Source: Lactobacillus isalae
GTDB lineage: Bacteria > Bacillota > Bacilli > Lactobacillales > Lactobacillaceae
Length of the DNA: 64,000 bases
NCBI RefSeq assembly: GCF_947539375.1
Contig: NZ_OX443569.1
Span: forward strand, 496,001-560,000
Reading direction: 5' to 3'
Position 1 is the first letter of the stretch; every line of letters starts with the position of its first letter. The translations under genes and the position numbers were made by a program. This document shows positions 1-17,476 of the stretch, in pieces. The notes under the pieces were generated by a model. That model did not search any database, was not told the origin of the DNA, and worked only from the letters and a program-made list of their open reading frames with translations.

Positions 1-1
1 A

Positions 2-181
2 AATCCATTGTGCGAAAGATGTTTATTACATAAAAAGCATACTTTAGCAACAGATATACATCATAAGCATGATGTATTTAACCATTGGAACGAACGTTTA
101 CACTTAGAAAATTTGGAAAGCTTATGCAAGCCGTGCCATGAGAAAATTCACAAACTCGGGTATTATAACGGCTTGTTATAA
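2..181 (+). CDS. HNH endonuclease, phage packaging type (3' end only)
   Basis: An open frame runs in from the left edge and stops with TAA at 179-181, giving the last 59 residues. It has a first zinc pair (LCERC), a central ATDIHHK stretch with the catalytic histidines, and a second pair (LCKPCHEKIH), which together are the HNH/zinc signature. In HK97-like cos phages such a nuclease sits just before the small terminase and helps the terminase cut at cos. Position and motifs agree here. The start codon and N-terminus lie outside the window. Confidence 0.85.
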   Translation, partial: NPLCERCLLHKKHTLATDIHHKHDVFNHWNERLHLENLESLCKPCHEKIHKLGYYNGLL

Positions 182-372
182 AATTATAACGGTTACAAAA
201 AGTAAGAGTATCCCAAACATTTGATCCCCCTATGGTTGAGCCATTTCGCTAACCGTCCCGCAGTTTTCCTCACGTAAAATTCCTTAAATGAAAGTTTTTT
301 AGGTTGTAACGGCGTTACGAAAAGCCCGATTTTACGCAGTTTTTACTTTAGAAAGGTCGTGAAAATTCACAA
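182..372. other. Non-coding gap between HNH and terminase; probable cos/packaging region
   Basis: I see no ORF in these 191 bases. The gap lies where cos phages keep the cohesive-end site and terminase binding sites. It contains a perfect 13-bp palindrome at 306-318 (GTAACG-G-CGTTAC). The octamer TATAACGG occurs at 164-171 and 185-192, with TGTAACGG at 305-312. A GC-richer patch at 228-265 stands out from the AT-rich surroundings. The cos role is inferred from location and repeats; the cut positions cannot be read. Confidence 0.45.
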
Positions 373-840
373 ATGGCTGGAAGACCAAGAAAGCATTCCA
401 CACAAGATAAATCTCATAAAACTAAAGCTGAAAAAGAGCTAAGAAAAGAAGAAGAGCAGTTTGCTGGATCAGAAAACTTCAAGCATTTGGGAACTAAGCC
501 ACCTAAATCTTTAATGGATGTAACTGCAAGAAATGAATATAAGCGTGTTGTTCCTTTATTAATTAATTTAGATATCACAGCTTTAGATCAAACGTTGGTG
601 GTTAACTACTGTAATTCCTACTCCCTCTACTTACAAGCGATTAAAGCCGTTAAAAAGGAAGGACTGGTTGTTAATGGCAGAAAGAATCCTGCATACAACA
701 TTTATTTAGATATGCAAAAGGAACTTAGAGCAACAGCTGGTCAACTAGGAATGACTTTAGATAGTCGAATGAAACTTGTTAAGCCTGAAAATCATGAAGA
801 AGAAAAAGATCCATATGCACAGGTAGGTGATGTTCAGTGA
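373..840 (+). CDS. terS: Terminase small subunit (P27 family)
   Basis: 155 aa, the usual size for P27-type (Terminase_4) small subunits. It starts MAGRPRK with a very basic, lysine-rich N-terminus that could contact DNA, followed by a helical core, and ends in an acidic tail (EEEKDP). The family recognises the packaging site on concatemeric phage DNA and hands it to the large subunit. The candidate packaging region lies immediately upstream, and the stop codon overlaps the GTG start of the large terminase (GTGA), which suggests translational coupling. The assignment rests on overall pattern and position. Confidence 0.85.
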   Translation: MAGRPRKHSTQDKSHKTKAEKELRKEEEQFAGSENFKHLGTKPPKSLMDVTARNEYKRVVPLLINLDITALDQTLVVNYCNSYSLYLQAIKAVKKEGLVVNGRKNPAYNIYLDMQKELRATAGQLGMTLDSRMKLVKPENHEEEKDPYAQVGDVQ

Positions 841-2549
841 TTGATGAAACTACCAGATATGCGCAAGAAATTGTGGGTTTAAAGATACCTGCTAATAAAA
901 AAACGCGTCAGGCAGCTAAAAGACACCTAGATGACCTTGAGAAGTCAAAGAATGACGACTATCCGTACTACTTTGACGCTAAAAAGGCAGAGACTGTCAT
1001 TAACTTTATTAGCTCTTTACCTAACCCAGATGATGGTCAGCCTATGAAGTTGGTTAATTTCCAAGCGTTTATTGTTGGTTCATTGTTTGGCTGGAAGAAA
1101 AAGAAAGATGGTCTTAGAAGATTTACCTATGCTGTCATCTCAATGGCACGTAAACAAGGTAAATCAATTATTGTTGCTGGTATTGCATTGTATATGCTGG
1201 TTTACGAAAAGAACCCAGTAATGGCACGCCAGATTTATACTGCTGCAAATAAGCGAGATCAAGCAAAACTTACTTTTAACTATGTGGTTGATTTCTTAAA
1301 ACCACTTAGATACAAGTCGAAATTTTTTAGAAAACGTACTCGAATTAAACGAGACACTATCGAAGATACAGAAAGTAGTTCATTTATTACTCCACTCTCA
1401 AATGATGTTAAAGGAATGCAAGGTTTGAACACGATGCTAGGGATTCTTGATGAGCAGGCCGATTCTACTGATAGATCAGTTCTGGAAGCTATTCAGAAAT
1501 CTCAACGTCAACAGAAACAGCCACTGACTATTATTATTTCAACCGTTTCGGATCAGATTAATGGTTGGTTTCATGAAACAGAATATAAGTACGTTACCAA
1601 GTTACTCAATGGTGATGTGGAAGATGATACTTACTTTGCTGTTTGGTATGAGCAGGACAACGAAGAAGAGCTGGCTGATCCTAAGAATTGGATTAAATCG
1701 AACCCTATTCTTTATGACGAAAAAATCCGTGAACACTTACTTCCAAAACTAAAAGAAGACTGGAAACGTGCCCAGGACATGGAAACTACTACTTCTTCTA
1801 AGATTTATACCTTTAACATGTGGCAACAAGCCAGTGAGAATTCCTACATTAACGTAAAAGATTGGTCAACTATTCGAATTGATAAAACACCTGATTTATA
1901 TGGCAGGGATGTCTACTTAGGCCTTGACTTAGCCCGTGTAGGAGACCTATCAGCTGTGAGCTGGTGCATACCAATTGATGAAGATAGTAAGTTCTATGTT
2001 GGCTCTCACGCGTTTGTTGGTACTCGTGGAGGAATAGAGAACAAGATACAGCGAGATAAGATTGATTATCTTGCTTTACGAAAACGGGGAGAAGTTACCT
2101 TAAGTAACTTGCAGAGTGGCAATATTGATGACCAACAGATCATTGATTACATTTACAACTTCATTGGTCAATATAACTTAAACGTTAGATCAATGTGCTA
2201 TGACCGCTACTCTGCAAATCACATCATAGATACGTTTAATGAAGATGGTTATCTCATGGTTGATGTAGCTCAAGGATTAGCTACTTTGTCTGAACCGACT
2301 AAGCAATTTAGGAAATTTGTTCAGGATAAAACTATTGAACATGGAGATAATCGACTGCTTGAGATTGCGGTTAACAATGCAATTGTTAAAGAGAATAATG
2401 ACGCAGTTATTTTGGATAAAACAATGTATCGCAATAAGATTGACCCTTTAGCAGCATTAATCAATGCGTTTACTCAAGCGTATCTATATGACTTCTCTCT
2501 TGTTCATAAGAGAGACGATGATTTTTATGAAAACGAATTTCACTTTTAA
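837..2549 (+). CDS. terL: Terminase large subunit (ATPase and nuclease)
   Basis: 570 aa, typical for the Terminase_1 family. It starts at GTG 837, overlapping the terS stop by 4 nt. Walker A is ARKQGKS (residues about 104-110) and Walker B is LGILDE (about 201-206). The C-terminal RNase H-like nuclease begins at LGLDLARVGD (about 361-370), and its later acidic motif is probably YDR near 454. The ATPase pumps DNA into the prohead and the nuclease cuts the concatemer. The HNH-TerS-TerL-portal-protease-capsid order is the standard HK97-like head module. All key motifs are intact. Confidence 0.95.
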   Translation: MIDETTRYAQEIVGLKIPANKKTRQAAKRHLDDLEKSKNDDYPYYFDAKKAETVINFISSLPNPDDGQPMKLVNFQAFIVGSLFGWKKKKDGLRRFTYAVISMARKQGKSIIVAGIALYMLVYEKNPVMARQIYTAANKRDQAKLTFNYVVDFLKPLRYKSKFFRKRTRIKRDTIEDTESSSFITPLSNDVKGMQGLNTMLGILDEQADSTDRSVLEAIQKSQRQQKQPLTIIISTVSDQINGWFHETEYKYVTKLLNGDVEDDTYFAVWYEQDNEEELADPKNWIKSNPILYDEKIREHLLPKLKEDWKRAQDMETTTSSKIYTFNMWQQASENSYINVKDWSTIRIDKTPDLYGRDVYLGLDLARVGDLSAVSWCIPIDEDSKFYVGSHAFVGTRGGIENKIQRDKIDYLALRKRGEVTLSNLQSGNIDDQQIIDYIYNFIGQYNLNVRSMCYDRYSANHIIDTFNEDGYLMVDVAQGLATLSEPTKQFRKFVQDKTIEHGDNRLLEIAVNNAIVKENNDAVILDKTMYRNKIDPLAALINAFTQAYLYDFSLVHKRDDDFYENEFHF

Positions 2550-2721
2550 AACTATTAGTCTATGCATTTTAGCTAATATCCATACCTTATTTTGCCTAAT
2601 CGGAATACTACTTGTTTCAGTAGGACTGTTTCTGATTGGAGCACCTGTTGGCTTTATTGGTACTGGAGTTATTTTGGTAACTTTAGCTATCTATATTGAC
2701 CGCACATCAAATTACAAATAG
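2527..2721 (+). CDS. Small phage membrane protein, DUF1056-like
   Basis: 64 aa from ATG 2527. A longer reading from 2464 would bury its first 21 codons inside terL, so the later start is preferred. After a short basic N-terminus there are two hydrophobic segments (about residues 10-30 and 35-57) separated by a Gly/Pro turn, so it is probably a two-pass membrane protein. Small proteins of this look, placed between large terminase and portal in lactobacillus and lactococcus phages, belong to DUF1056 and are sometimes called head-tail joining proteins. No experimental role is known to me. It overlaps the terL 3' end by 23 nt. Confidence 0.6.
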   Translation: MKTNFTFKTISLCILANIHTLFCLIGILLVSVGLFLIGAPVGFIGTGVILVTLAIYIDRTSNYK

Positions 2722-2732
2722 GAGGTGACATA

Positions 2733-4118
2733 ATGACCTTTTTTCGTCCGTTAACAGCGTTTAACGATTCAGGATCTTTTATTGATTTCAATGATAGTAA
2801 TCCGCGATATGTTCCAATTGACAAGTTACGGAATTCAGACGTATTTACAGCCGTCAACGTCATTTCTAACGATATCGCAACTAATCCCATTAAGCTTGAA
2901 AGTGATAATGTCAACCACATTGCAGATGATAATTTTAGTGACTTAAACTACTTGCTTAATGTAAAACCTAATGATTATGTTTCTGCACGAGATTTTAAGT
3001 ATGCATTATGTGCGAACTTGCTACTTACAGGAAATGCCTATGCTAGAATTCTTAGATCAAAGCGTAGAAATAAACCGATGGCTTTAATTCTACTTAGACC
3101 AAGTTGGGTTGATGTAGAAGTGGAAGACCTAACAGGGCAGATTAGATACTACATTCAAGACAATACTCATGATCCGTATTACTTAGATCCTGAGGACATT
3201 ATTCATATAAAAATGCTTACCACTAATGGAATGATAGGAGCTAGTCCTCTTTATTCATTAGTTGATGAGTTATCAATGCAAAGACAAGGAAATAAGTTAC
3301 TTAACGACTTCTTTGGTTCAGGAATTAATGGTTCAGCAATCCTTAAATTGCCAGGAGACCCTACACCTGATTCTAGAGACAATGTGCGAAAAAAATGGCT
3401 TGAAGCAAACACTGGTAACAAAACACACCGAGTAATGGTGCTTAGTTCACGGGAAGAATACACTCCCGTAGAAATCGATACTTCCATTTTAAAAATCGTC
3501 AATTCCAATGATTACACTACCAAGCAGATTGCAAAAGCGTTTGGTATACCAGTTTCTCGTTTAGGACTAGAAAACGCACATACATCACTTCCACAATCAA
3601 ACCTAGATTACATTCAAAACTCATTAGATCACTACTTCAATCGTTTTACTTCTGAATTTAATATCAAACTTCTGTCATTTCAACAAGCTAAGAAGTATCA
3701 CTTTGAGTTTGATGTATCTCGTTTAATGGAGCTTGATACCGAAACAAATATGAAGCAAACACTTGATTGGTATAAGAGTGGATTGCTTGATGACAATGAA
3801 GCTCGTAGAAGACTTGGATATGCACCTTATAAAGATGTCATGTCTGGTACTCGTGTAATTATGAGTAACTTTGTTCCTATTGAAAACATCAGAGAGAATT
3901 TTCCTAATAACGTTATTAAAGGTAATCAATATGACGATAATGGCAAGCCTACTGATGAAGAACATTTTGAACAAACAGGTCAAGGCAATGTCGTAAAGGT
4001 TAAGACGGGAAAAGGCAATGACACTAATGGAGATCAGAAACTTAATTCAGATGCCGAAAGTGGATCAGGAGACAAGAAAGATTCAAGGAACGGCAGTGGT
4101 ATTCAACCAAAGAAGTGA
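2733..4118 (+). CDS. Portal protein (HK97 family)
   Basis: 461 aa. An AGGAGG ribosome binding site lies just upstream (2721-2726). The body has the phage portal family layout: an N-terminal arm, a mixed alpha/beta region (ALILLRPSWVDVEVE, DIIHIKML), the stem/clip region and a C-terminal helical crown. It forms the dodecameric ring through which DNA enters and to which the neck attaches. The last 50-60 residues are hydrophilic, rich in Gly, Asp, Lys and Ser. They are encoded in a segment that overlaps the following protease gene by about 90-100 nt in another frame, a longer overlap than elsewhere in this cluster. Confidence 0.92.
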   Translation: MTFFRPLTAFNDSGSFIDFNDSNPRYVPIDKLRNSDVFTAVNVISNDIATNPIKLESDNVNHIADDNFSDLNYLLNVKPNDYVSARDFKYALCANLLLTGNAYARILRSKRRNKPMALILLRPSWVDVEVEDLTGQIRYYIQDNTHDPYYLDPEDIIHIKMLTTNGMIGASPLYSLVDELSMQRQGNKLLNDFFGSGINGSAILKLPGDPTPDSRDNVRKKWLEANTGNKTHRVMVLSSREEYTPVEIDTSILKIVNSNDYTTKQIAKAFGIPVSRLGLENAHTSLPQSNLDYIQNSLDHYFNRFTSEFNIKLLSFQQAKKYHFEFDVSRLMELDTETNMKQTLDWYKSGLLDDNEARRRLGYAPYKDVMSGTRVIMSNFVPIENIRENFPNNVIKGNQYDDNGKPTDEEHFEQTGQGNVVKVKTGKGNDTNGDQKLNSDAESGSGDKKDSRNGSGIQPKK

Positions 4119-4596
4119 GGACTTAGGTGGTTTTATTGAAGAAATTGAACCTAGTGCTTTCGATAGTGTGGATACATCAGATGTGGTTCTACTTTACAAC
4201 CACAATACGGGAGATGTGCTAGCTAGAACTAGTGCTAATACTTTATTACTCAATATAGATGGTTCTGGAGTCCATTTTGAAGCTGAAATTCCTAAAACTA
4301 CTTTAGGTAATGACACAATGACTAACTTAGAAAATCGTAATGTTCAAGGGATGAGTTTTGGTTTCACAATTGCTGACGATGATTGGCAAGAACAGCCAGA
4401 TGGTTCACTACTGCATATTGTGAGAAAGATTGGAAAACTCTATGAGTTATCATTAACTCCTTTTCCTGCCTATAAAGAAACTGATGTGGCTGTTTCTCAA
4501 CGCTCAATGAAAAACTTTTTAGATAAAAGAAATGAATTAGAAGCCGATAAAGAATGGCTTAAATTACAAAAAGACTTAAATATCAAGGAGATTTAA
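4027..4596 (+). CDS. Prohead maturation protease (HK97 family, peptidase U35)
   Basis: 189 aa from ATG 4027; ATG 4018 three codons earlier is equally possible, with GGGAAAAGG (4009-4015) as ribosome binding site for either. The fold signature is clear: IQGTAVVFNQRSEDLGGFIEEIEPSAF near the N-terminus, catalytic His in LYNHNTGDVLA (about residue 59), catalytic Ser in GMSFGF (about 109), then YELSLTPFPAYKETDV. It cleaves the scaffold (delta) part from the capsid protein during prohead maturation. Its gene overlaps the portal 3' end, and its stop directly abuts the capsid start codon. Confidence 0.92.
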   Translation: MEIRNLIQMPKVDQETRKIQGTAVVFNQRSEDLGGFIEEIEPSAFDSVDTSDVVLLYNHNTGDVLARTSANTLLLNIDGSGVHFEAEIPKTTLGNDTMTNLENRNVQGMSFGFTIADDDWQEQPDGSLLHIVRKIGKLYELSLTPFPAYKETDVAVSQRSMKNFLDKRNELEADKEWLKLQKDLNIKEI

Positions 4597-5742
4597 ATGC
4601 TAAAAGAAAAGATTAAGGAAGCTACAGCTAAATACAATGATTTAGTTCAAAAGCGTAGCGCCTTATTGAAGGATGCAGATACTGCTTCTGAAGTAAAGGA
4701 TATTAAAGAAATTCGTTCTAAGATTACTGGTCTTAATACTGAATTAGATCAAGCTAAAGCTGACCTAGACGATTTAAAAGAACTAGAAAAAGAAGAACAA
4801 CGCTCAATTGCTCCTGAGGTTAATGAAGGGCCTCATCACCGTGGCGGTGGTTCAAGTAAAGATAAGTTGGAAATTCAAAAACGAGCTATTAATGCTTATA
4901 TTCACACTCGTGATGCTTCTAATGCTACTGAAGTTGGATTGAAATCAGAAGATGCTGAAGTAACCATTCCAAAGGATATTCAGTACATTCCTACTGAAGA
5001 AGTTAAAACTGTTACTGATTTATCTAAATTAGTAACTCAATTTACTCCTACTACTGCTTCAGGAACTTATCCAATTGTAAAACGTGCTACTGCTAAATTG
5101 CATACAGTAGCTGAATTAGAAAAGAACCCAGAATTGGCAAAGCCTGAATTTATTAAACGCGAATGGAAAGTAGATACTTACCGTGGCGCTATTCCGCTGT
5201 CACAAGAATCTATTGAAGATTCGGCTGCCGATTTAATTGGTATTGTTTCAAATAACGCAATGGAACAAAAAATTAATACTACTAATGCTGCTATTTCAAC
5301 TATTTTACAAAGTTTTACTGCTAAATCTGTTTCAGGTAGTGATGTAGATGCGATTAAACACATTTTGAATGTAGATTTAGATCCAGCATATCAACGTACT
5401 ATTATTGCATCACAAAGCTTCTATCAATACTTAGATACTTTAAAGGATAAAAACGGTCGCTATTTACTTAATGATCCAATTACTACTGATTCTCCAGCAA
5501 TGTTGTTAGGTGTATCTGTAATTGTAGTTGAAGATAATTTATTAGGTAAGGATGGCGAAGCACATGCCTTTATTGGAGATATTAAACGTGCAGTGCTTTA
5601 TGCTAACCGTTCTGATATTCAAATTAGATGGGTGGATAACGATATTTACGGTACTTATTTACGTGCATCAGTAAGATTCGGAGTAGTTAAAGCTGACGAA
5701 AATGCAGGTTACTTTGTAACCGCTGGTACAGCGGGAAATTAA
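4597..5742 (+). CDS. Major capsid protein (HK97 gp5 family)
   Basis: 381 aa for the in-frame product. Residues 1-70 form a charged coiled coil of scaffold-domain type, then a Gly/His/Ser linker near residues 85-95 where the protease would cut. The mature HK97-fold region starts around 100. The IPKDIQYIP and TYPIVKRATAKLHTVAE stretches and the C-terminal GTYLRASVRFGVV are characteristic. The start follows AAGGAG (4583-4588). The stop TAA (5740-5742) directly follows a canonical -1 slippery heptamer and precedes a GC-rich hairpin, so part of the product may be extended (see next entries). Confidence 0.93.
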   Translation: MLKEKIKEATAKYNDLVQKRSALLKDADTASEVKDIKEIRSKITGLNTELDQAKADLDDLKELEKEEQRSIAPEVNEGPHHRGGGSSKDKLEIQKRAINAYIHTRDASNATEVGLKSEDAEVTIPKDIQYIPTEEVKTVTDLSKLVTQFTPTTASGTYPIVKRATAKLHTVAELEKNPELAKPEFIKREWKVDTYRGAIPLSQESIEDSAADLIGIVSNNAMEQKINTTNAAISTILQSFTAKSVSGSDVDAIKHILNVDLDPAYQRTIIASQSFYQYLDTLKDKNGRYLLNDPITTDSPAMLLGVSVIVVEDNLLGKDGEAHAFIGDIKRAVLYANRSDIQIRWVDNDIYGTYLRASVRFGVVKADENAGYFVTAGTAGN

Positions 5743-5767
5743 ATCCCCCACCAGAAAATGGTGGGGA
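5733..5767 (+). promoter_or_regulatory. Candidate programmed -1 frameshift site at the capsid stop codon
   Basis: The heptamer GGGAAAT at 5733-5739 is read G GGA AAT in the capsid frame, fitting X XXY YYZ, and is followed by the capsid TAA. After a 6-nt spacer an 8-bp stem begins: 5746-5753 (CCCCACCA) pairs with 5759-5766 (TGGTGGGG) around a GAAAA loop. Heptamer, spacer and stem all fall in the usual range for -1 frameshift signals. After slippage, reading continues at 5739 in an open frame to TAA at 5877-5879. The elements are seen; their function is inferred. Confidence 0.6.
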
Positions 5768-5879
5768 CACAAAGCCCATTAATGCTAATACAGTAGCTGA
5801 AATTAAGGCTTACTTGGATAAGCATTCAATTGAGTATCCAGCGTCTGCACCTAAGGACGACTTATTAAAGCTGGTGTAA
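5739..5879 (+). CDS. HeH/LEM-like C-terminal extension of the capsid protein, reached by -1 frameshift
   Basis: 46 codons open in the -1 frame relative to the capsid gene. After a proline-rich linker (LNPPPENGGDTKP) comes a compact helix-extended loop-helix sequence (NTVAEIKAYLDKHSIEYP, then KDDLLKLV), the look of HeH/LEM or Rho-N type mini-domains. No ATG or GTG with a ribosome binding site occurs in this frame, which argues against an independent gene. A frameshifted capsid would be 427 aa instead of 381. Such minor extended capsid subunits could be decorated or bind DNA or host surfaces. Alternatively this is an ATT-started or degenerate ORF. Confidence 0.55.
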   Translation, partial: LNPPPENGGDTKPINANTVAEIKAYLDKHSIEYPASAPKDDLLKLV

Positions 5880-5882
5880 TAA

Positions 5883-6254
5883 ATGGCTGATACTACATTT
5901 GATAAACAACAATTTAAAGATTATTTACGTATCAATTTTGATGAAGATAATGCAGTTATTGAGAATCTGTGGAGGGGTGCAGAGGAAGTAATTTGTACTC
6001 AAGTTTCTAAAACTGCTACTCCAGAAAAGTTATCTAAATATCAAATGTTTACTATTGCAGTTCGATTATTAGCGACACATTGGTATGAGAGTAAAACAAC
6101 TGTTCCACAGACTGCTACGGTTAAAGCAAATACTGCTGAAATTCCATACGGAGTTACTAGATTAATCGACATTATTTACACGAGGTACGTAAATGATCCT
6201 GAATTTAATGAAGACGAAAATTCAGGTAATGAAAAACAAGACGGTCAAGAATAA
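5883..6254 (+). CDS. Head-tail connector protein (gp6-like)
   Basis: 123 aa, an all-helical small protein with the features of the Phage_connect_1/gp6-like family: FKDYLRINFDEDNAVIENL at the N-terminus, a central helix with VRLLATHWYE, and GVTRLIDIIY near the end. The family forms a ring under the portal and starts the neck. It lies directly after the capsid gene, as in HK97-like phages. The acidic tail (EFNEDENSGNEKQ) is encoded where it overlaps the next gene by 62 nt. Confidence 0.85.
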   Translation: MADTTFDKQQFKDYLRINFDEDNAVIENLWRGAEEVICTQVSKTATPEKLSKYQMFTIAVRLLATHWYESKTTVPQTATVKANTAEIPYGVTRLIDIIYTRYVNDPEFNEDENSGNEKQDGQE

Positions 6255-6525
6255 GGAAGACGGGACATATGAAGATAAGCTAGTTCCAATTAAAGAACTA
6301 TGGTGTGATGTCACAAGGTCTACCTTGAAAGAGTATCGCGAAAATAGTGGCTTAGAAGAAGGCAAGGATAACACTATCTTCTTAGTTAACTACATGGATA
6401 GTCGAGAGATTACTAGTGATATGTTCATTCATTTTAACGGCAATGACTACAATATTAAAAATATTCAACGCGATTATGAACGCTTTGATAGCACGAGAAT
6501 AACAGGAAGGTTGGTGGAGAAGTAA
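6193..6525 (+). CDS. Head closure / head-tail joining protein (SPP1 gp16-like)
   Basis: 110 aa. The 6193 start is favoured despite the long overlap with the upstream gene, because GAGG at 6182-6185 sits 7 nt before it; ATG 6208 and 6229 lack a good site. The core is a small beta barrel of the Phage_H_T_join family: KELWCDVTRSTLKEY, then TIFLVNYMDSREI, HFNGNDYNIKNIQRDY and ITGRLV. In the family it plugs the connector channel after DNA packaging. The stop overlaps the next start by 1 nt (TAATG). Confidence 0.8.
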   Translation: MILNLMKTKIQVMKNKTVKNKEDGTYEDKLVPIKELWCDVTRSTLKEYRENSGLEEGKDNTIFLVNYMDSREITSDMFIHFNGNDYNIKNIQRDYERFDSTRITGRLVEK

Positions 6526-6920
6526 TGGTTCAAGGGCTAGAGGATGTCATGAGTAACATTCGTGCCCTTAGAGATAAGGGACAAAGAGCACAGAAAGATG
6601 CTCTTAATAAAATGGGTGATACTTTTGAAAATACCTTACGTGAAAATATACCAGTTGGTATGCAACACGGTTATGAAATTCACTTAGCAGAAGACGTTAA
6701 AAAAGGCACTCCACGAATGAGACAAGGTATTTTGTCTCTTAAGGTCGGACTGGCTGGTTCCGCATCTACTGGTGAATTGCCAGCTTGGTATGCACACTTT
6801 GCTGATACTGGATCAATGAAGAAAGCACCAACATTCTTTTCTGAAAAGTCTCGTGACCAATCAATACCTGAATTAAAACAAGACGTAATCGATCAGTTTA
6901 AGAAAGAGTTAGGATCATGA
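6525..6920 (+). CDS. Tail completion / neck protein (HK97 gp10-like)
   Basis: 131 aa. An N-terminal helix (LEDVMSNIRALRDKGQRAQKDALNKMGDTF) is followed by a beta region with LKVGLAG and a conserved-looking YAHFADTGSMKKAPTFF, a pattern of HK97 gp10 family proteins (around FVEFGT in many members). They join the head neck to the tail terminator. Coupled by a 1-nt overlap upstream and an ATGA overlap downstream. Confidence 0.82.
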   Translation: MVQGLEDVMSNIRALRDKGQRAQKDALNKMGDTFENTLRENIPVGMQHGYEIHLAEDVKKGTPRMRQGILSLKVGLAGSASTGELPAWYAHFADTGSMKKAPTFFSEKSRDQSIPELKQDVIDQFKKELGS

Positions 6921-7342
6921 TTTTTGCAGATCAAAAAGTTTATTCTGCTTTAGCTAATAACGAAAAGCTAACTAAGGCTATGGCTGATATGCAAACCAAT
7001 TCTACAGATGAAGATATGATTTTTAATTTCGATATTCCAGAAGAATATCAAGGAAATAAGTATGCTCCTATTATTCGTGTGAATTACATAGGTAATAAAT
7101 ATCGCAGTTCTGATGACGATGGAGCATACACCAAGCCTAGAGTGTGCGTATCTTTATGGACTAAAACATTTAGTCAAGGGACAAAATTACTTCCTATTAT
7201 ATTAGACGCTTTAAAAGGTATTGGTTTTTATCGGTATGCAGATAGCCACACGAAAGATCCTGACACTGCTGACCAACCTAATAAACAACTTTATATGTTC
7301 CAGCTATACGTTAATGGAATAATTTTTGAAGAAGAGGAATAA
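6917..7342 (+). CDS. Tail terminator-like protein (DUF806)
   Basis: 141 aa, starting at an ATGA overlap with the previous gene. The sequence matches the look of DUF806 proteins of lactobacillus and lactococcus phages: an N-terminal helix, then alternating beta strands with APIIRVNYIG and RVCVSLWTK, and an acidic end. By position (after gp10-like, before the tail tube) it should be the protein capping the tail tube and joining tail to head. Function is inferred from synteny. Confidence 0.75.
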   Translation: MIFADQKVYSALANNEKLTKAMADMQTNSTDEDMIFNFDIPEEYQGNKYAPIIRVNYIGNKYRSSDDDGAYTKPRVCVSLWTKTFSQGTKLLPIILDALKGIGFYRYADSHTKDPDTADQPNKQLYMFQLYVNGIIFEEEE

Positions 7343-7346
7343 ATAA

Positions 7347-7985
7347 ATGGCAGACAAGAAATTCGTGAAAATTGGTGCTAAGAACTTACGCTTTGCCCAA
7401 TTAGACGATGAAGGATTTATTAAGGGCGATATCCTTCAATTACCAGGTACTACTGAAATTGATGTATCTGTTACTTCAGACAATGCAACTATTAATGCCG
7501 ATGATGGTCCTTACATGACTTTATCATCTGGTATTTCTAAGACTACCGCTAAGGTAAGTAATTACTTCTTAACTCCTGAAGCTAAAACAATGCTTTTAGG
7601 AACTAAATATGCAAAGGGAATGGAATTCTACGGGGACGATTCATTACCAAACCACGTTGCTATGATGTTTGAAACACAATTGCAATCTAATGAAGCACAC
7701 CCTCTCTATGTAGGTTTGTTAAATGGTACTTTTAAGTTCCCAGATAACAAGAACAAGACTAAGGGTTCTGGTGCTCCTGATCCTTCTCCTGAAGAACTCG
7801 AAGGAGAATTTGTAATGCAGGAACGTGGCAATAATAAAATTGCTGAAATTAATGGTTTCACTTCTGATCCAGATTTCGATATGGCAACGTATGAATCTGT
7901 GGTATTCCCTAAAGATCAAGCAAGTTTAGATGCAGCATTGAAGAAAGTTTTTGATGCAACTACACCTAGTGGACCTACTGCATAA
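7347..7985 (+). CDS. Major tail (tube) protein
   Basis: 212 aa. Beta-rich sequence with the typical opening of siphophage tail tube proteins (KFVKIGAKNLRFAQLDDEG), an ISKTTAKVSNYFLTPEAKTML core, and a late ALYVGLL/FKFPDN-type strand pair, in the phi13/TP901-1 major tail family. Hexamers stack into the tail tube around the tape measure. A charged, proline-rich insertion lies around residues 130-155 (KNKTKGSGAPDPSPEELEG). It has its own gap downstream, containing a hairpin, before the chaperone gene. Confidence 0.87.
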   Translation: MADKKFVKIGAKNLRFAQLDDEGFIKGDILQLPGTTEIDVSVTSDNATINADDGPYMTLSSGISKTTAKVSNYFLTPEAKTMLLGTKYAKGMEFYGDDSLPNHVAMMFETQLQSNEAHPLYVGLLNGTFKFPDNKNKTKGSGAPDPSPEELEGEFVMQERGNNKIAEINGFTSDPDFDMATYESVVFPKDQASLDAALKKVFDATTPSGPTA

Positions 7986-8008
7986 AGTTAAAACTATAAT
8001 CAGTCGCG

Positions 8009-8048
8009 CTAGAAATAAACAATAGTCACAGACCGCGGCTATTTCTAG
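8009..8048 (+). other. Inverted repeat before the tail chaperone gene
   Basis: CTAGAAATA (8009-8017) and TATTTCTAG (8040-8048) are perfect 9-bp arms around a 22-nt loop. The 3' arm runs into AGGAGA (8047-8052), the ribosome binding site of the gene starting at 8058. No T-run follows, so it is not a simple terminator; control of translation or mRNA processing is possible. Confidence 0.5.
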
Positions 8049-8057
8049 GAGAAAACT

Positions 8058-8411
8058 ATGAAAGAAACAATTAAGTTATATGAAGATGGCGAATACAAAA
8101 CCTACGAACGAGATATGGCTAAGATCCCTTTAACTGTAGAAGATTGGATGAACGCTAATGAATTAGATGTTGCCCAACATAACTATTCAATGAAAACAAC
8201 TAGCGATAAGCCGATGAAAGCCAAAGATGCACAAGACTTAGTTAAAGCTGATGTAAAGTTTGTAGTTAATTACTTTAGAAATCAATTTACACTTGACCAA
8301 GCAATGAAAGGTATTGCACCTAAGGTAATGGTTGAAGAATTTAATAAATGGTATAGCCAATCAGCTGGTGCATTAGACATTGGTAATGAAAAAGGTGACC
8401 AAAAAAAATAA
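8058..8411 (+). CDS. Tail assembly chaperone (gpG-like)
   Basis: 117 aa, mostly helical, between the tail tube and tape measure genes, the position of lambda G or its equivalents. Its last codons are CAA AAA AAA before TAA, a run of eight A that holds the A AAA AAA slippery heptamer. The zero-frame product and a longer frameshifted product together chaperone the tape measure protein in many siphophages. The start at 8058 follows AGGAGAAA. Sequence similarity to lambda G is not visible; the call depends on position and frameshift architecture. Confidence 0.8.
   Translation: MKETIKLYEDGEYKTYERDMAKIPLTVEDWMNANELDVAQHNYSMKTTSDKPMKAKDAQDLVKADVKFVVNYFRNQFTLDQAMKGIAPKVMVEEFNKWYSQSAGALDIGNEKGDQKK
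8402..8408 (+). promoter_or_regulatory. Programmed -1 frameshift heptamer of the tail assembly chaperone
   Basis: A AAA AAA at 8402-8408 lies at the end of the zero frame, immediately before its TAA stop (8409-8411). A -1 slip continues as ATA ACT GTT GAA GAA into the downstream frame. This matches the conserved G/G-T arrangement of long-tailed phages. A strong downstream hairpin is not obvious by eye. Confidence 0.75.
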
Positions 8412-8650
8412 CTGTTGAAGAATTGAAGAAAAGCCGAAAAAAAGTATTAGCTTTATTTCGTGTAATGCAAGAAAAGTTTGGCTACAACATGAAAGATATT
8501 CTTTCAATGCGTGGGCCAGAATTTAAAACTTTTGTTGATTCATTTGGCGAAAACAAAGTCGAAGAAAAACCTAAGCTAACTACTATAGATCAGGCATTCC
8601 CTCAATTCTTTACAGATCCGTTTGCTAAGAGAAAGGGGAGTAAATCTTAA
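8408..8650 (+). CDS. T-domain extension of the tail assembly chaperone (gpGT-like, -1 frame)
   Basis: 80 codons in the -1 frame, joined as QKK-ITVEELKKSRKKVLALF. The only separate start available is a TTG at 8423 without a good ribosome binding site, so the reading as a fusion is better. The frameshifted product would be 197 aa. In lambda the T part binds the major tail protein while G binds the tape measure; this segment is basic at its start and ends in a Phe/Pro-rich patch (FPQFFTDPFAKRKG). Its TAA overlaps the tape measure ATG by 1 nt. Confidence 0.78.
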   Translation: MTVEELKKSRKKVLALFRVMQEKFGYNMKDILSMRGPEFKTFVDSFGENKVEEKPKLTTIDQAFPQFFTDPFAKRKGSKS

Positions 8651-11600
8651 TGGCAGATGAATTAGGTCACATATCTGCGGAGATCGCTCTTGATATTAAT
8701 CCTTTCTTAACAAACCAACGTGTTCTTGAAACTCAAATAGGCAGAACTGGTAAGCTCCTGAATAATATGGAGAACAGCTTTAAAACAGCTGGTTCGAAGA
8801 TTAGTGCTAATAATATTTTTAAAACTCAAGTAGCACAACTGAAAATGCTTGATAAGCAAATGTCTAATTATCAAAGACATATGTCAGAAGTGCAAAAAAG
8901 TATTGCTAATGGAAATAATACTGTAGCTAATCAACGTTCTCTTGCTTCTACTGCTACTCAATTGCAGAATGCGTCAATAAAATATGACCAACTTAGAATG
9001 TCTGCTGCACGTACTCTTCAAGAACAACGTGCTGCAAGTTCTGTTTTCGGTCAAGCGTCTGCAAGAATTGGAGACTATGGCAACAAGATAGAAGAAGCAG
9101 GTCAAAAAATTAAAGGTATGGGTAGCACCTTAGGTTCTGCTGTAATTGGAGCAGGATTATACAATGCTGCTAAAGCTGCAATGAGTTTTAAATCTGAAAT
9201 TCAAGGTATTGGACCATTGCTTTCAGAAGATGGTCGAATTACTAGTCAGGTTACTCAACAGCTAAATCAAATGAGTGCAAGTTCACTTAGATGGTCTAAG
9301 CAATATGGTATTTCAACTCATGAAATCAATAATGCGATGACCGAACTTGTAAGACGTGGATTTACTGCTAACCAAACTCTAGGTTCAATGCCAGCTATTC
9401 TTAATGCTAGTCGTGCATCAGGTGAAAGCTTAGGCATTGTTATGCAGGCTACTGCTAGTTCAATTGAAATGTTTGGACTTAAGGCTAATACTGCTGCTGA
9501 ACAAACTAAGAATACTACCCGAGTTACCGATGTTTTAACAGTTGCCGCTAATAAAACTGCTACTAGTTTTGCAGATATTGCTGCTGCAATGACTTATGTT
9601 GGTCCAACTGCTGCACAAGCTCATATGAGTATTGAACAGATTGCTGCTGCAATTGGTGCATTATCTAACAAGGGTATTGAAGCCTCTACTGCTGGTACTA
9701 CTTTACGTCAGGTATTGAGTAAGTTAACTACTGATACCAAGACTAACCGTGCTAATATGCAAGCAATCGGTGTGGATATTGATGAGATTAAGAAAAAGGG
9801 AGTAGACCTTCCTAAGTTAATTGACCAAATCAATAACAAACTAAAAGATAAGACACCTACTGAAAAGATGGCTTTGCTAAACGCAGCGTTTGGTAAGCTT
9901 GGTCAAGGTGTTATGGCTTTGTTTGAAAAGTCAAATAAGAGTAGTAAATCAGCTGGTGATGAACTTCGTAACTTACAAGGCGAGCTTGAAAAAGCTGGCG
10001 GTACAACTAAACGTATTGCTGACCAGATGAATAATACTCCACAAGCTAAGTGGGAAAGATTTAAACAAACAATGCACGCCACATTAATTGAAATTGGTGG
10101 CAATATGCTTCCTGCTGTAACTGGATTGATGAAAAACATTCAGAACTTAGCTGAAGCATTTAGTCGTTTAGATCCAGCTACTCAATCAGCAATCGTTAAG
10201 TTCTTAGCTTTATATGCTGCAATTAAGCCATTAAGCGCTGTGGTCGGAGCGCCTATTGAAGGCATTGGTAAGCTTACCAATGGTTTTAAGAAATTATTTG
10301 ATTTAGGTGCAAAATTAAAGGCTGGTTCTTTAACATCAGCACTTAAAGAAGTAGACAGTGCATTAGGTAAAGTAAGCGATGCTAAAGGTGCAGTTACTAC
10401 TCTGCAAAGTGTGGGTAGTGCAGCAGAACATTCTGGGACTAAGTTCTTAGGCTTAGCTGGAAAGATAGAAAATACTGCTTCTAAGGGAGCAGAATTGGCA
10501 ACAGCTATTCCTGGAACTGTTAGTGGTTTTACTGCATTAGGTACTGGAGCTACAGAGGCAACTACAGCGACAGCTACTTTAGGTTCAGCATTAGCAACCA
10601 CTGCTATAGGTGTAGGTGCTGTAGCTGGAGTATTGGCAGTGGGATATGGAGCTTATAAACTTTATACGGGAGTAATTCAGCCTGCTATTGATAAAGAACG
10701 TGAACATGAATATGAATTGGCCACTTGGGGAGCAGTTGTTGGCAAAGAAACTTCTGAATCTGCTAATAAATTTAAGAATTTTTCTAGTCAGGCTACTCAA
10801 GCTATGGATAAAGCACAATCTAATGTTAAGCAAAATGCTGATTCAATAAAGAAGGCATTTGAGGGAATGGGCAATGAAGCCAAAAAGAATGCTAAAAAAA
10901 TAGAAGACTCTATTGGATCAACAGCTAAATATTTAGGTGGCGATGCAGGAAAATACTTAAAAGGTGTTGGATCTAAAAGGACTAAAACTGATAATTCATA
11001 TTTAGATAATATTACTGCTGACCAAAAGAAAGCTGATGCAATAATTGCTGCTGCAAAAGCACAAGGCGGGAAGATGTCAGCTGATACTCGTCAAGAATTG
11101 AGTAATATTCAAGCTGATATTACAGCTAATTACGTTGCTACATTAGGAAAGACAAAAAATGCTAGTGTGCGTCTTAGACAAGCACTTGCAGGAACTTTTG
11201 ACAGCTCATCTTCAAAAGCACAATTACAAAAATATGTAAATGATGTTGATGATGCTTTAAATAAAAACTATAGAAATACTCAAAAAGGTATGTCTAAGCT
11301 AAATAGCTTATATAAAAGTGGAAAGATTAGTTATCGAGATTATGCGAAGACTAAGGAACTCTATGAAGACGCAGATAGAGAAAGAACCGATAAATTAATT
11401 GATTCTAATATCAAACTAAAAAGAGCCCAAGGTGAAAGCTGGGATGAAATTAAAAACCAACTTAAAACCGTCGGTCGTGATTGGGGAGTTACAGCTAATC
11501 AAATAGACCGTGCAATTGATAGAGTAAAAAAAGGTCATCAAAGTTTAGGAAAATATGTCATTGATACTACTGGTAAAATGACAAAATCAACTAAAAAAGC

Positions 11601-13428
11601 AAGTGACACATGGAATAGTTGGGTACTTGATCCTAAAACAGGAAAAGTAAGAACTAATTTATCTGAATTTTTAGCACAAAAGTCTAAAAGTCAAAAAGGA
11701 TGGGATCAATTACATTTTGTAATTAAAAATGCCAAGCTTTCTACTAATTCTAAAATGGCTATTGCTGAAGCTGTTAGTGCAAACCATAGATGGAGTTCAT
11801 TAAGTTGGAAAGAACAACAGGCTTTAATTCGCTCTAAAGGCGGTAAAGAAGTACAACAACTTATGTACATTGAGGGACAATGGAATAATTTAGATCCCAA
11901 AATTCAAACATTAATTGCTACTGCTAAAGGAAAAGATGAAATTGTAAATTCTTTAAGCAATATTAAGAATTGGAATTTGCTTAAACCTGAACAGAAGCAA
12001 TTAATTATTAATGAATTTTCTGGTTTTGATAAACTGCGCCTTGAATTAAACAACATTAAAGAATGGAATTCTTTAAGTACCAAAAAGCAAGACGCAATAA
12101 TGAATATTGTAAAACATGGAGGTAGCTTAGAAGATGAGTTAAAGAAGGCTCAAGTGTGGAATTCCCTTCCTAAAAGTATGCAAAAAGAGATTAGAATAGT
12201 TGATAACTCATCAAAAAGAATTAATAGCGTCAAATTAGCTCTTAAAACAATTAATTCATTTACCGCTAAGCCTAAGCTTGAAATGAATACGACTAATGCG
12301 GTTGATCGTATAACGAAGTTCAATACTTTATTGAATGATACTTCTAAGAAACAGCCATTTGTTAAAGTTGATGCACATACGGAAGATGGTCTGGGTAAGG
12401 TTGAAAGACTAAACGATACGATTAATTCAATGACACGCACGCCTAAAACATCTCATGTAGGAATTACTGTTTCAGGTAAGGATAAATTGGATTCTGCTAA
12501 GAATAGTCAAAAGCAATTTAATGCTTTACCTACCTTGCCAAAACATAACAGCATGTCTGTTAGCGGTGCTGGTCAAGTGCAGGACGGAACAAATAAACAA
12601 AAAGGCTTTAATGGTACATCATCATCTAGCAAAAAGAACTCTATGCATACTGATGGAGTAGGACAAGTACAAGATGGTACTAATAAGCAAAAGAATTTTA
12701 ATGGCACAAGATCAAGTAGTAAGCATAATCATATGAGTGCTAGTGGTCGTGGTGAAGTAGCAGACGCTACTTCAAAACAACAAGCTTTCAGGAGACAGCG
12801 TGGTCATACTATTCAAAACACTATAAGAACCGTATATGAAACCGTAAAGAAATTTATTACTGGCCATAAAGCCACAGGAACAGCTGGAGCATGGAGATTT
12901 AAGCACTTTGCTTATGGAACTCCTAATGACGGCTGGGAAGGTGGTCCAGTAGTTGTAGGCGATGGTCATCGACAAGAAGTTGTATATGACCCCCAAGTAG
13001 GACTATTTAAAACTCCTGCTACTGATACTGTAATGGATTTATCTAAGGGGTCTGTTGTATGGCGTTCTGTAGAAGCGTTTGAGACAGCAATGGAACATGC
13101 AGGGATTAATAATTATCCGAAGTTTGCTTACGGAACTGCTAGTCAAGACTTAGTAGCATTAGCTAATAGATTGCCTGATGATATGGAGCAACAACTTAAA
13201 ACAGTTAACCCACAATCGTCTAGCTTGAGTGGTTTTAATGAAACTCAAATGCAAACTAATGAACTAATTGCAACATTGATCGAACAGAATGCAATGCTAG
13301 TTCGATTATTTAAGAACTTAGGCATGAACGTAAACATTGATGGCAAACAGCTAGCAAAAGCACAGGTAGAAAATAATTCCAGTGCATTGAATGAATTTGT
13401 TAAGCAAACAGGAATGGGGTTTAGTTAA
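8650..13428 (+). CDS. Tail tape measure protein (TP901 family)
   Basis: 1592 aa. N-terminal coiled coil (about 1-150), then a TP901-type core (from SFKSEIQGIGPLL near 177, through ATSFADIAAAMTYVGPTA, to about 500). A hydrophobic segment lies at about 640-672 (ATTAIGVGAVAGVLAVGYGAYKL), then long charged helices. Near residues 1299-1380 there are three imperfect repeats of about 28 residues built on MSVSGAGQVQDGTNKQKGFNG. The C-terminus includes the Gly/Tyr-rich FAYGTP motif seen twice. The length fixes the tail length, which at about 1.5 angstrom per residue would be near 240 nm. No catalytic wall-lysis domain is evident. Confidence 0.95.
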   Translation: MADELGHISAEIALDINPFLTNQRVLETQIGRTGKLLNNMENSFKTAGSKISANNIFKTQVAQLKMLDKQMSNYQRHMSEVQKSIANGNNTVANQRSLASTATQLQNASIKYDQLRMSAARTLQEQRAASSVFGQASARIGDYGNKIEEAGQKIKGMGSTLGSAVIGAGLYNAAKAAMSFKSEIQGIGPLLSEDGRITSQVTQQLNQMSASSLRWSKQYGISTHEINNAMTELVRRGFTANQTLGSMPAILNASRASGESLGIVMQATASSIEMFGLKANTAAEQTKNTTRVTDVLTVAANKTATSFADIAAAMTYVGPTAAQAHMSIEQIAAAIGALSNKGIEASTAGTTLRQVLSKLTTDTKTNRANMQAIGVDIDEIKKKGVDLPKLIDQINNKLKDKTPTEKMALLNAAFGKLGQGVMALFEKSNKSSKSAGDELRNLQGELEKAGGTTKRIADQMNNTPQAKWERFKQTMHATLIEIGGNMLPAVTGLMKNIQNLAEAFSRLDPATQSAIVKFLALYAAIKPLSAVVGAPIEGIGKLTNGFKKLFDLGAKLKAGSLTSALKEVDSALGKVSDAKGAVTTLQSVGSAAEHSGTKFLGLAGKIENTASKGAELATAIPGTVSGFTALGTGATEATTATATLGSALATTAIGVGAVAGVLAVGYGAYKLYTGVIQPAIDKEREHEYELATWGAVVGKETSESANKFKNFSSQATQAMDKAQSNVKQNADSIKKAFEGMGNEAKKNAKKIEDSIGSTAKYLGGDAGKYLKGVGSKRTKTDNSYLDNITADQKKADAIIAAAKAQGGKMSADTRQELSNIQADITANYVATLGKTKNASVRLRQALAGTFDSSSSKAQLQKYVNDVDDALNKNYRNTQKGMSKLNSLYKSGKISYRDYAKTKELYEDADRERTDKLIDSNIKLKRAQGESWDEIKNQLKTVGRDWGVTANQIDRAIDRVKKGHQSLGKYVIDTTGKMTKSTKKASDTWNSWVLDPKTGKVRTNLSEFLAQKSKSQKGWDQLHFVIKNAKLSTNSKMAIAEAVSANHRWSSLSWKEQQALIRSKGGKEVQQLMYIEGQWNNLDPKIQTLIATAKGKDEIVNSLSNIKNWNLLKPEQKQLIINEFSGFDKLRLELNNIKEWNSLSTKKQDAIMNIVKHGGSLEDELKKAQVWNSLPKSMQKEIRIVDNSSKRINSVKLALKTINSFTAKPKLEMNTTNAVDRITKFNTLLNDTSKKQPFVKVDAHTEDGLGKVERLNDTINSMTRTPKTSHVGITVSGKDKLDSAKNSQKQFNALPTLPKHNSMSVSGAGQVQDGTNKQKGFNGTSSSSKKNSMHTDGVGQVQDGTNKQKNFNGTRSSSKHNHMSASGRGEVADATSKQQAFRRQRGHTIQNTIRTVYETVKKFITGHKATGTAGAWRFKHFAYGTPNDGWEGGPVVVGDGHRQEVVYDPQVGLFKTPATDTVMDLSKGSVVWRSVEAFETAMEHAGINNYPKFAYGTASQDLVALANRLPDDMEQQLKTVNPQSSSLSGFNETQMQTNELIATLIEQNAMLVRLFKNLGMNVNIDGKQLAKAQVENNSSALNEFVKQTGMGFS

Positions 13429-14171
13429 TGGATTACACAATTAAATATAATGGTAAGACTAATCTTGACTTTGATATGTATTGGGATACTGATGGTAACT
13501 TTGAATTAGGAACAGGTACACCAGATATTGATACAACCGATATTCCTGGAGTAAGTGGGACAATTTTAGACTTCAATAATTCTTATAAGAACTTTGAGCA
13601 AAAATTTGTTTTTTACGCAGTTACTAAAGAAATGACAGCTAATGAATTAAAAACTAGATTAACAAGCTGGCTTTTAAAAGATCCTACTTATCATCAATTG
13701 TCTTTTAGCAATGATCCTGATTATTACTATATTGCAGCACCTAACCCAAGTTCTGTTCTTAAGTTTCCAGCTTTTAACAAACATTATTCTAAAGTTGAAA
13801 TTTCATTCACTGTTAAGCCATTTAAATATCGCTTAGATGGTAGAAGTGAATATTCCATTCCTACTACTTTAATTAATCCTGAACAATGGCTTAGCTATCC
13901 TCTTATTCATATTGTAGGCAATGAGGGTGTAACGCTTAATATCAATGACCAAAAATATCAATTAACTAGTATTGATGGAGAAGTATTTATTGATAGTGAA
14001 CCAGTGAAAAACATTGTTTACCATGACTTAAGCGAACAAGGAATGAGAAATGCAACTGCTATTTTCCCAGACCATTCATTCCCAGTTCTGGATGCTGGTG
14101 AAAATCAAATTAGTATAACTGGTAACTATCAGTCAGCCACCATCATACCGAGGTGGAAAACGCTATGTTAG
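13428..14171 (+). CDS. Distal tail protein (Dit)
   Basis: 247 aa, overlapping the tape measure stop by 1 nt (TAATG). N-terminal beta-sandwich typical of siphophage Dit (about 1-135, with FSNDPDYYYIAAPNPSSV and ISFTVKPFKYRLDG), followed by a galectin-like C-terminal domain (YPLIHIVGNEGVTLNINDQKYQL, IDSEPVKNI, FPVLDAGENQISITG). Dit forms the hexameric hub between tail tube and adhesion device. The length shows a classical Dit without added carbohydrate-binding modules. It overlaps the Tal gene by 19 nt. Confidence 0.9.
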   Translation: MDYTIKYNGKTNLDFDMYWDTDGNFELGTGTPDIDTTDIPGVSGTILDFNNSYKNFEQKFVFYAVTKEMTANELKTRLTSWLLKDPTYHQLSFSNDPDYYYIAAPNPSSVLKFPAFNKHYSKVEISFTVKPFKYRLDGRSEYSIPTTLINPEQWLSYPLIHIVGNEGVTLNINDQKYQLTSIDGEVFIDSEPVKNIVYHDLSEQGMRNATAIFPDHSFPVLDAGENQISITGNYQSATIIPRWKTLC

Positions 14172-17100: not shown

Positions 17101-17476
17101 TGGACCTAAGCAAAGAATTGAAAATGTTCACCTAGGTAAAAAAGAAGAAACCTTGCGTGATACCATGAACCAATTCTTAGCTGTAGCCGATGCTAATAGT
17201 CAAAAGAATGCGAGTGAAAGTGCAAGTTCCAGCGAAAGCGCAAATGCGGAAGCTATCAATCAGATTAAATCAAAAGTTTATAAACAGTTAGATGACTTCA
17301 AAGTAGATTGGGAAGCTTACAAGAAAAACGTGCCTACACAAACCGATTTTCAAAATCAATTACAGGCAATGCAAACCAATTTAAGTAAATCTATGGAAGA
17401 GAAGTTTCAAGAACTCGAAGAAAGGATCAAGAATGATAAATCGGATAATTCTGGATCTAAGCAAGAAAAACAATAG
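14153..17476 (+). CDS. Tail-associated lysin (Tal): split gp27-like hub with transglycosylase, M23 peptidase and four SH3-like repeats
   Basis: 1107 aa. Residues 1-240 are the N-terminal part of the prophage endopeptidase-tail hub. A SLT-like domain follows (about 265-370; MIQGESSGNE with the likely catalytic Glu, HPTLGLIQF). Next is an M23 zinc peptidase (about 415-530) with HDGLD and HVHIG metal ligands. Four repeats near 569-623, 660-720, 731-785 and 806-865 each end in a W-Y/N-W-I-N type motif and look like SH3-type wall-binding modules. The hub sequence resumes at about 885 (YLKAPNANKFENEKILKHDFS) to 1010, then a coiled coil. The protein would open the peptidoglycan at infection. The M23 ligands are complete. 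Confidence 0.88.
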   Translation: MENAMLARPILFKSASDPTNTLGLGVMTGFKDWRVKTEKNMIPKLTGTYSLNNYLSSFINNDCVIMADASQHRLNQIFKIDKLSQKVDEHGKGTIDIEAHHIAGELIKNSIAHDIFLVNASPQKLWDTLMANLTASDFKKFHFHTDIVSVANISIQWKEVTTLQDILFGDSNSSTDSFTKLWNGQWYFDNYDIYFLQKIGSGNKLSVTYGQNLKTLSQDLSIQNTYTAVQGYASKKEEYTPTTTITITTTENKNTDQPKGQTHPVNGDWGPVIKYAAKVMGVTCDDDYVAKIKNMIQGESSGNEKAVNNWDANAKAGHPTLGLIQFRQDTFDRYKVKPYTNIWAGFDQLCALFNMSDWKSQVNSWQKVRAWSPNGKKRMDEVKNTSAIQISWGWPFPSVGEGKFTGGQLFGINPGGEFRTNNFHDGLDFGSVDHPGNEVHAIHDGKVTIIGNDSYIGWHVVTHSNDGYDIVYQEAFSNRGNIKVSQGQEVKTGDVIGIRDTNHVHIGVTNKSWVEGYNGHSFDPNWGWLDPLKLIKDGSKPGELVVSQKTVEIGQECDIGLVQYIGSGRVATYSSPIDKRTSGQYIKPGQHIRIIRKYTGNGTDWYKITDNNWINADFINVNNGSKYLFNSIQGKGHIKWDESVKIPSLEVFKRTLKTKYLYSKIPVHLYPNVNSPTESSLDTSSDEKIIYRTKDDDGIDWYGLSNKQWINSQNLVLGAYAYQPAKGIGKTNKTASIFAEPGNSNIGTVNQNTECKVFMIAKNQGKTWYNIGGQRWINSQDISFTTAPLPIAEVVNGKDLPPNYTDKLTVYDSPAWDRKVNGKYVGKNELVNISGQANSDNQVWYRVEKGWINGKYVDFSQKGDVKPYDPKAKSIPNNDDNAIVLKEVYLKAPNANKFENEKILKHDFSEYNINSSDQLKGLVQSYIYDKRVGEVEVNLTIDFYQMKNELAQLKSCDVGYEASVFFKKLDINEATEITSLEWNGPKQRIENVHLGKKEETLRDTMNQFLAVADANSQKNASESASSSESANAEAINQIKSKVYKQLDDFKVDWEAYKKNVPTQTDFQNQLQAMQTNLSKSMEEKFQELEERIKNDKSDNSGSKQEKQ

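Follow-up and report, generated by a model that had tools for sequence, protein, structure and literature searches.

Probable −1 frameshifting at the major capsid stop codon of a Lactobacillus isalae prophage, with addition of a HeH/LEM-like tail

The window analyzed here, a stretch of 64,000 nucleotides from Lactobacillus isalae (contig NZ_OX443569.1, positions 496,001 to 560,000 of the forward strand), starts in the head and tail operon of a prophage, in which the S78 protease, the capsid, and the connector were named by family search and the terminase and the portal from reading alone. At the end of the major capsid gene, a −1 frame runs open across the stop codon, and the question that this locus raises is whether ribosomes are programmed to enter that frame. 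As judged from the sequence, programmed −1 ribosomal frameshifting that adds a HeH/LEM-like tail to the capsid is the best reading, with a probability of about 0.92; it had already been put forward in a sequence-only reading of this DNA, and it is now backed by the anatomy of the site, its conservation, and selection on the −1 frame. The features concerned are the following.

4597–5742, + strand: major capsid gene, HK97-type, zero-frame product of 381 aa (PF05065, E 4e-23; phrog_10 major head protein, E 2.4e-63)
5733–5739, + strand: slippery heptamer GGGAAAT in the register G_GGA_AAT, an in-frame X_XXY_YYZ (from the sequence)
5740–5742, + strand: zero-frame stop TAA, immediately 3' of the heptamer (from the sequence)
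5740–5745, + strand: 6-nt spacer TAAATC between heptamer and stem (from the sequence)
5746–5766, + strand: stem-loop of 8 bp with a 5-nt loop, presumed frameshift stimulator (RNA fold; stem position conserved in relatives)
5739–5879, + strand: −1 frame extension of 46 codons plus stop (5877–5879), with a linker of ~16 residues followed by a HeH/LEM-like two-helix domain
5787–5876, + strand: HeH/LEM-like domain proper, extension residues 17–46 (PF12949 match to residues 18–46; AlphaFold2 model)
5883–6254, + strand: next gene, a head-tail connector (Ad1) with its own ATG, separate from the extension (PF05135, E 4.3e-8; phrog_40)

The capsid gene ends GCG GGA AAT TAA. Its −1 frame is already open upstream of the heptamer and continues as far as the stop at 5877–5879. 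RNA structures that stimulate −1 frameshifting lie about 5–9 nt downstream of the heptamer, and the stem found here, in which CCCCACCA (5746–5753) pairs with TGGTGGGG (5759–5766), falls within this range at 6 nt. The fold of 5740–5780 has an energy of −16.6 kcal/mol (z −3.71) and that of 5740–5800 a z of −3.98; in both cases, none of 200 shuffles was equally stable. The heptamer, the TAA, the 6-nt spacer, the 8-bp stem, and the 46-codon −1 frame had all been described in the sequence-only reading, and each is borne out by sequence and fold. So is its remark that the −1 frame lacks a usable start: the sole ATG, GTG, or TTG in the tail frame is a TTG at 5814, inside the domain, which would leave 21 residues. 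A predicted 6-bp hairpin (5720–5734; 4 bp in the relative L014) abuts the heptamer upstream and overlaps its first two bases. No Rfam family matched 5500–6100 at E 1.

According to the proposed mechanism, most ribosomes would stop at TAA 5740 and release the 381-residue capsid. When tRNA-Gly (GGA) and tRNA-Asn (AAT) occupy the heptamer, with the stop codon to follow and the stem-loop 6 nt downstream, a minority would re-pair one base back, on GGG and AAA, and continue for another 46 codons. The product would be a capsid of 427 residues, extended at its C-terminus by a linker and the HeH/LEM-like domain. Both forms would enter the head, so that the domain would be carried by a fraction of the subunits, as is reported of the homologous phage A2 with its Ig-like tail. 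We infer the slippage itself, its frequency, the co-assembly of both forms, the location on the shell, and the function of the tail, which would presumably be displayed on the shell exterior. What counts against the −1 slip is that GGGAAAT leaves tRNA-Asn on AAA with a wobble mismatch; XXXAAAT slip sites are modest in E. coli.

Among 58 ORFs of the window (ATG-started, at least 80 aa, both strands), two have an in-frame X_XXY_YYZ that ends 0–9 nt before the stop. The −1 frame stays open for at least 25 codons in both, and a stem of at least 6 bp is present at the capsid only. ORF 8058–8411 ends AAAAAAA (8402–8408) TAA, with a −1 frame open at 8399–8650. By its position this ORF resembles the tail assembly chaperone G/GT, where a −1 shift is to be expected in a phage, and its sequence makes a second −1 frameshift of the same prophage probable; the −1 part of the 8058–8650 region had no Pfam match at E 0.1. 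Further along the window, 17858–20548 encodes a large tail-region protein whose C-terminal half, in the translation read by eye, is metallophosphoesterase-like, and a tRNA-Ser (cga) lies at 31229–31316, in the host part.

The HeH, LEM, SAP, and Rho_N domains are small and helical, and several of them bind nucleic acid or protein. The window tail matches PF12949 at E 1.2e-6 with 28.6 bits, the Pfam cutoff being narrowly higher (28.9), and 25 of 28 aligned tails match it at E 0.01 or better (best 8.6e-12). AlphaFold2, applied to 22 tails, predicts for the window tail a helix – extended loop – helix fold, with helices at extension residues 19–28 and 39–45 (mean pLDDT 82.3) and a less certain linker. 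The profile match, narrowly below the cutoff, and the two predicted helices agree with the HeH/LEM-like character first assigned to the extension by inspection. In addition, the tail profile matches chain A of PDB 2OUT (FluMu gp35; E 6e-6), and Foldseek found no PDB structure similar to the 46-residue model at E ≤ 0.001. In the genome, the tail has a single occurrence.

Relatives were gathered through the capsid; bacterial genomes contributed 12 loci and viral contigs 54. Matches were present in 14 of 75 genomes of the genus and 148 of 397 of the family; at most 30 loci were taken per search, which gave 43 new loci altogether, and 20 regions of named phages, hand-chosen from the match lists, were added. 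Tails were sought behind the capsid stop of 126 loci with our own iterated HeH and Ig profiles, and 80 of these loci, the window included, formed the set for the capsid tree; loci were dropped if the stretch held no capsid stop, if the best capsid query belonged to another family, if identity was below 38% or fewer than 200 residues were matched, or if rows were identical. The 80 distinct capsids comprise 20 with a HeH tail at −1, 13 with a HeH tail at +1, 9 with an Ig tail at −1, and 38 tailless ones, L102 being ambiguous in class as the Ig profile matches it in two frames, and L009 and L042 being scored as tailless although their next ORF holds a HeH domain; since the rows are related, these counts are not independent events.

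A slip site is present in all 20 HeH −1 capsids (8 canonical heptamers, 12 A_AAA_stop), a canonical heptamer in 8 of the 9 Ig −1 capsids, and an in-frame CCC codon, within the overlap, in 13/13 HeH +1 capsids. The capsid bodies hold 27,518 codons, of which 50 are CCC; this codon also precedes the stop in three further +1 records (L127, L129, L130). Among the 38 tailless capsids, three have a slip site and one has CCC. It counts somewhat against the frameshift reading that in the 12 HeH −1 capsids without a canonical heptamer (e.g., GTCAAAATAA) the shift would be a slip of a single tRNA. The three tailless capsids with a slip site (L090, L048, L093) have a −1 extension of merely ~17–21 codons with no domain by our profiles; these are possibly lost or shortened tails. 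Three other capsids (L013, L043, L047) end GGGGGAATAA, with a −1 frame behind them; in L013, its product matches Rho_N (PF07498, E 7.4e-6). From the sequence, this would perhaps be a third tail type; an ATG near the start of the Rho_N frame makes a separate gene possible in L013.

The sequence-only reading had suggested that related prophages be searched for conservation of the heptamer, the spacer, and the stem, and in these relatives slip site, stem position, and tail do go together. The capsid of L014 is 86% identical to that of the window, and its heptamer, spacer, and stem are unchanged; in more distant capsids the sequences differ, but a slip site, the position of the stem, and the tail are all retained. 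The same reading had named two kinds of homologue that would speak against it, those that keep the capsid and lose the heptamer or hairpin, and those with a start codon for the extension. On the first point, L014 keeps all elements, and in L068, from the genus of the window's genome, tail and slip site are both absent. On the second point, two members of the window's capsid family, L009 and L042, speak to some extent against the reading, since their HeH domain is encoded by an ORF of its own whose ATG stands 20 nt past the capsid stop. At the DNA level, window 5680–5890 had no match among phage records, and window 1–20000 had a single 82-base match.

In the −1 frame, the tail evolves under purifying selection. 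Between the window and L014, this frame has four synonymous and three nonsynonymous changes, and in four pairs pooled, pS is 0.354 (47.5/134 sites) and pN 0.097 (42.5/439). This excess of pS over pN indicates that the tail is read as protein in that frame.

A second search, made with six tails, confirmed 104 viral loci; the best 80 of them were considered, and 58 were left once identical contexts had been removed. Within this sample, the tail lies at −1 in 40 loci, at +1 in 12, in frame in 2, and in its own or another arrangement in 4. A slip site is present in 40/40 of these −1 loci (15 canonical heptamers, 25 A_AAA_stop) and CCC in 10 of the 12 +1 loci. PHROGs identified major head proteins in 10/10 proteins bearing or adjoining a tail. 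Out-of-frame tails follow capsids of phrog_10, phrog_247, phrog_840, phrog_544, and phrog_29, and in-frame tails occur on phrog_544 and phrog_422 capsids. In phrog_544, another family than that of the window, the HeH tail is found at −1 in L133, where GGGAAAT also stands before the capsid stop, and in frame in P7.1 (L128); L168, of the same BLASTP cluster as L133, is +1. One exceptional locus, L147, has its slip site and HeH tail behind a 253-aa portal-like ORF with a capsid-like C-terminus and looks like a deletion remnant of a prophage.

The in-frame tails, which occur in phi jlb1 (L126), P7.1, L151, and L190, lend some substance to the idea that the window holds a decayed fusion, that is, a HeH domain once in frame with the capsid that a recent indel, or a sequencing error, has left untranslated. 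We consider this very improbable. Out-of-frame tails turn up repeatedly, in separate assemblies and different genera, the −1 class always comes with a slip site, the tail is under the selection described above, and the capsids of the tree set yielded no in-frame HeH. The existence of in-frame fusions does, on the other hand, weaken any claim that partial display is always required.

That the HeH peptide is the product of a separate small gene, made from its own start or by reinitiation past the capsid stop, is hardly to be expected in the window either, and we rate it no higher than decay. Such arrangements do exist: besides the HeH ORF of L009, a separate HeH/LEM gene adjoins the major capsid gene of Streptococcus phage vB_Sags-UPM1, according to the consulted part of PMC10221047. 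Moreover, start codons stand just before the tail in L177 and L200, the two +1 loci without CCC, and possible starts were found in the tail frame of 4/40 −1 loci (L134, L136, L143, L145) and further up in that of five +1 loci with CCC (L156, L158, L160, L168, L173), all within the best 80 of 104. In these four −1 loci and several +1 loci, the sequence thus allows for possible expression of the tail from its own start. Against this stand the 36 of 40 −1 loci, from the same best 80, with no start before the matched region, and the window itself, whose one candidate start falls within the domain. A separate peptide would, furthermore, need neither slip site nor stem.

The stem was compared across dereplicated rows by anchoring it at the slip site and searching for its start 4–8 nt downstream; pairs were counted on these slip-anchored stems, because the MAFFT alignment of the region misplaced 3' arms. 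All 19 HeH −1 rows have an uninterrupted stem of at least 6 bp that starts 4–7 nt after the slip site, with p of 0.05 or less against shuffles in 14 of them and between 0.058 and 0.138 in the remaining five. Eleven rows with the stem at offset 6 display five different 5-bp stems, with changes on both sides of the pairs (T-A/C-G, G-C/C-G). None of seven Ig −1 rows had a simple stem of at least 6 bp at 4–8 nt. A looser free-energy scan near the stop, free of the position rule, was a poor guide to which rows have a tail (one or none of 20 shuffles equally stable in 13/24 HeH −1 rows vs. 20/49 tailless rows), and the case for the stem is therefore one of position and pairing rather than of stability alone.

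This positional regularity bears on whether the hairpin could be a transcription terminator or an mRNA-stability element unrelated to frameshifting. A GC-rich stem past a stop codon is typical of terminators, and the minus strand scores as terminator-like here (5767–5745). None is called on the + strand, however, where the head genes continue downstream, the offset of the stem is tied to the slip site, and the minus-strand call fits the A-rich slip site 5' of the stem; the terminator reading is accordingly the least credible of the three. Two other routes to the tail can be set aside: stop-codon readthrough was rejected, as the zero frame past TAA 5740 differs from the HeH frame and meets a TAG, and transcriptional slippage was thought unlikely, the longest run in GGGAAAT being of three bases.

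Alongside programmed frameshifting as the best account of the window, comparison of close relatives suggests a possible exchange of the tails themselves. L024 (Ig, −1, CCCAAAA) and L026 (HeH, +1, CCC) align at 89.5% identity in the 4137 columns that lead up to the capsid end, and the match resumes at 82.7% from ~37 and ~20 nt past their tails, the tails being uncovered by any match. Likewise, identity between L002 (Ig, −1) and L026 is 94.9% in the 1155 columns up to the end of the capsid gene and 95.1% in 1934 columns further on, with ~0.7 kb extra in L002 between the tail and the resumed identity. Other pairs have CCCAAAA in both members and different tails: L007 and L008 (79% identity before the tail, 70% after) and L089 and A2 (70% before, 69% after). 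On the capsid tree, which is unrooted, quick, and long-branched, the four tail labels need 13 changes, for a minimum of 3 and an average of 37.2 in 200 shuffles.

These comparisons give an even chance, in our estimation, that capsid tails are exchangeable recoding cassettes, in which the capsid 3' end with its shift site and a tail domain (HeH, Ig-like, perhaps Rho_N) would recombine between phages while the remaining head genes stayed much as they were. Domain and slip site could then be replaced at once, along with even the direction of the shift (−1 at GGGAAAN, CCCAAAA, or A_AAA_stop; +1 at CCC), what is retained in this capsid family being the partial display of some small domain and not a particular domain or mechanism, and HeH would be a second widespread module beside Ig, often unannotated. 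Among the HeH-matching phage records listed (60 of 131), 26 have no annotated feature under the match, and so long capsid forms have probably been missed. This is an annotation gap of practical weight for frameshifted long capsid forms in phage records. More broadly, homologous capsids carry a quite different domain at the same site, and close relatives would arrive at their different tails through shifts in opposite directions, which raises the testable question of whether partial display itself is selected and which partners capsid-borne HeH domains have.

The sequence-only reading had regarded the arrangement as unfamiliar. That view does not stand with respect to the principle, which is known from the homologous capsids of A2, J-1, and PL-1, with an Ig-like tail in A2 and J-1; what appears to be new is the HeH tail, its spread over several capsid families, and the swaps of tail and direction among close relatives. 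In the open PMC literature, we found no frameshifted HeH capsid tail and no description of HeH behind several capsid families or of close relatives (90–95% identical head genes) that differ in tail and shift direction. In its consulted part, PMC5009743 treats frameshifted phage capsid tails mainly as Ig-like domains; it covers the capsid frameshifts of A2, T3/T7, A118, A500, and PSA together with Ig-like tails, presents shift direction as seemingly indifferent, and offers domain movement by recombination as an explanation. Major and minor capsids are also listed among the genes known to hold a frameshift in the part consulted of PMC10885494 (PRFect).

The likeness to small helical domains (HeH/LEM, SAP, Rho_N) consists in the profile matches of the tails to PF12949 and 2OUT. 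FluMu gp35 is a stand-alone protein, whereas the domain of the window would be a capsid extension reached via a frameshift. Listeria phages PSA and A118/A500 and gene 10 of T3 and T7 share with the window recoding near the end of the capsid gene that leads to a second, extended product; their tails are other than that of the window, and the likeness is one of description. PSA had been named in the sequence-only reading as an example of a frameshifted capsid, and this it is, but in the other direction: its shift is +1, those of A2, T3, A118, and A500 being −1 (PMC5009743, in the part consulted). From the same source, PSA uses a CCC codon, which is also present in frame in the 13/13 HeH +1 rows here, and differs from the window in having a pseudoknot as stimulator.

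The closest known systems are phages of the same capsid family. In the annotation of J-1 (L112), a major capsid S stands beside a major capsid L that is joined, and the J-1 tail is Ig-like by our own profile; for PL-1, the names major capsid S and major capsid L both appear. The frameshift of the A2 major head protein is credited to Garcia et al. (2004) in the consulted part of PMC5009743. The capsid of A2 (L111) is of HK97 type and homologous to that of the window (tblastn, 53% identity over residues 95–375, E 5e-100), and the two fall together in a set of 63 rows on the capsid tree (branch 98*). A2, like J-1, belongs to the Ig −1 class with a CCCAAAA site. In A2, as proposed for the window, a −1 shift just before the capsid stop places a C-terminal domain on part of the subunits. 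The two differ in the slip site, CCCAAAA in A2 with the stop 3 nt further on, in the stem, A2 being without a simple 6-bp stem that starts 4–8 nt after the slip, and in the tail itself, which is Ig-like in A2 (Big_2, E 2.1e-7) and HeH-like in the window.
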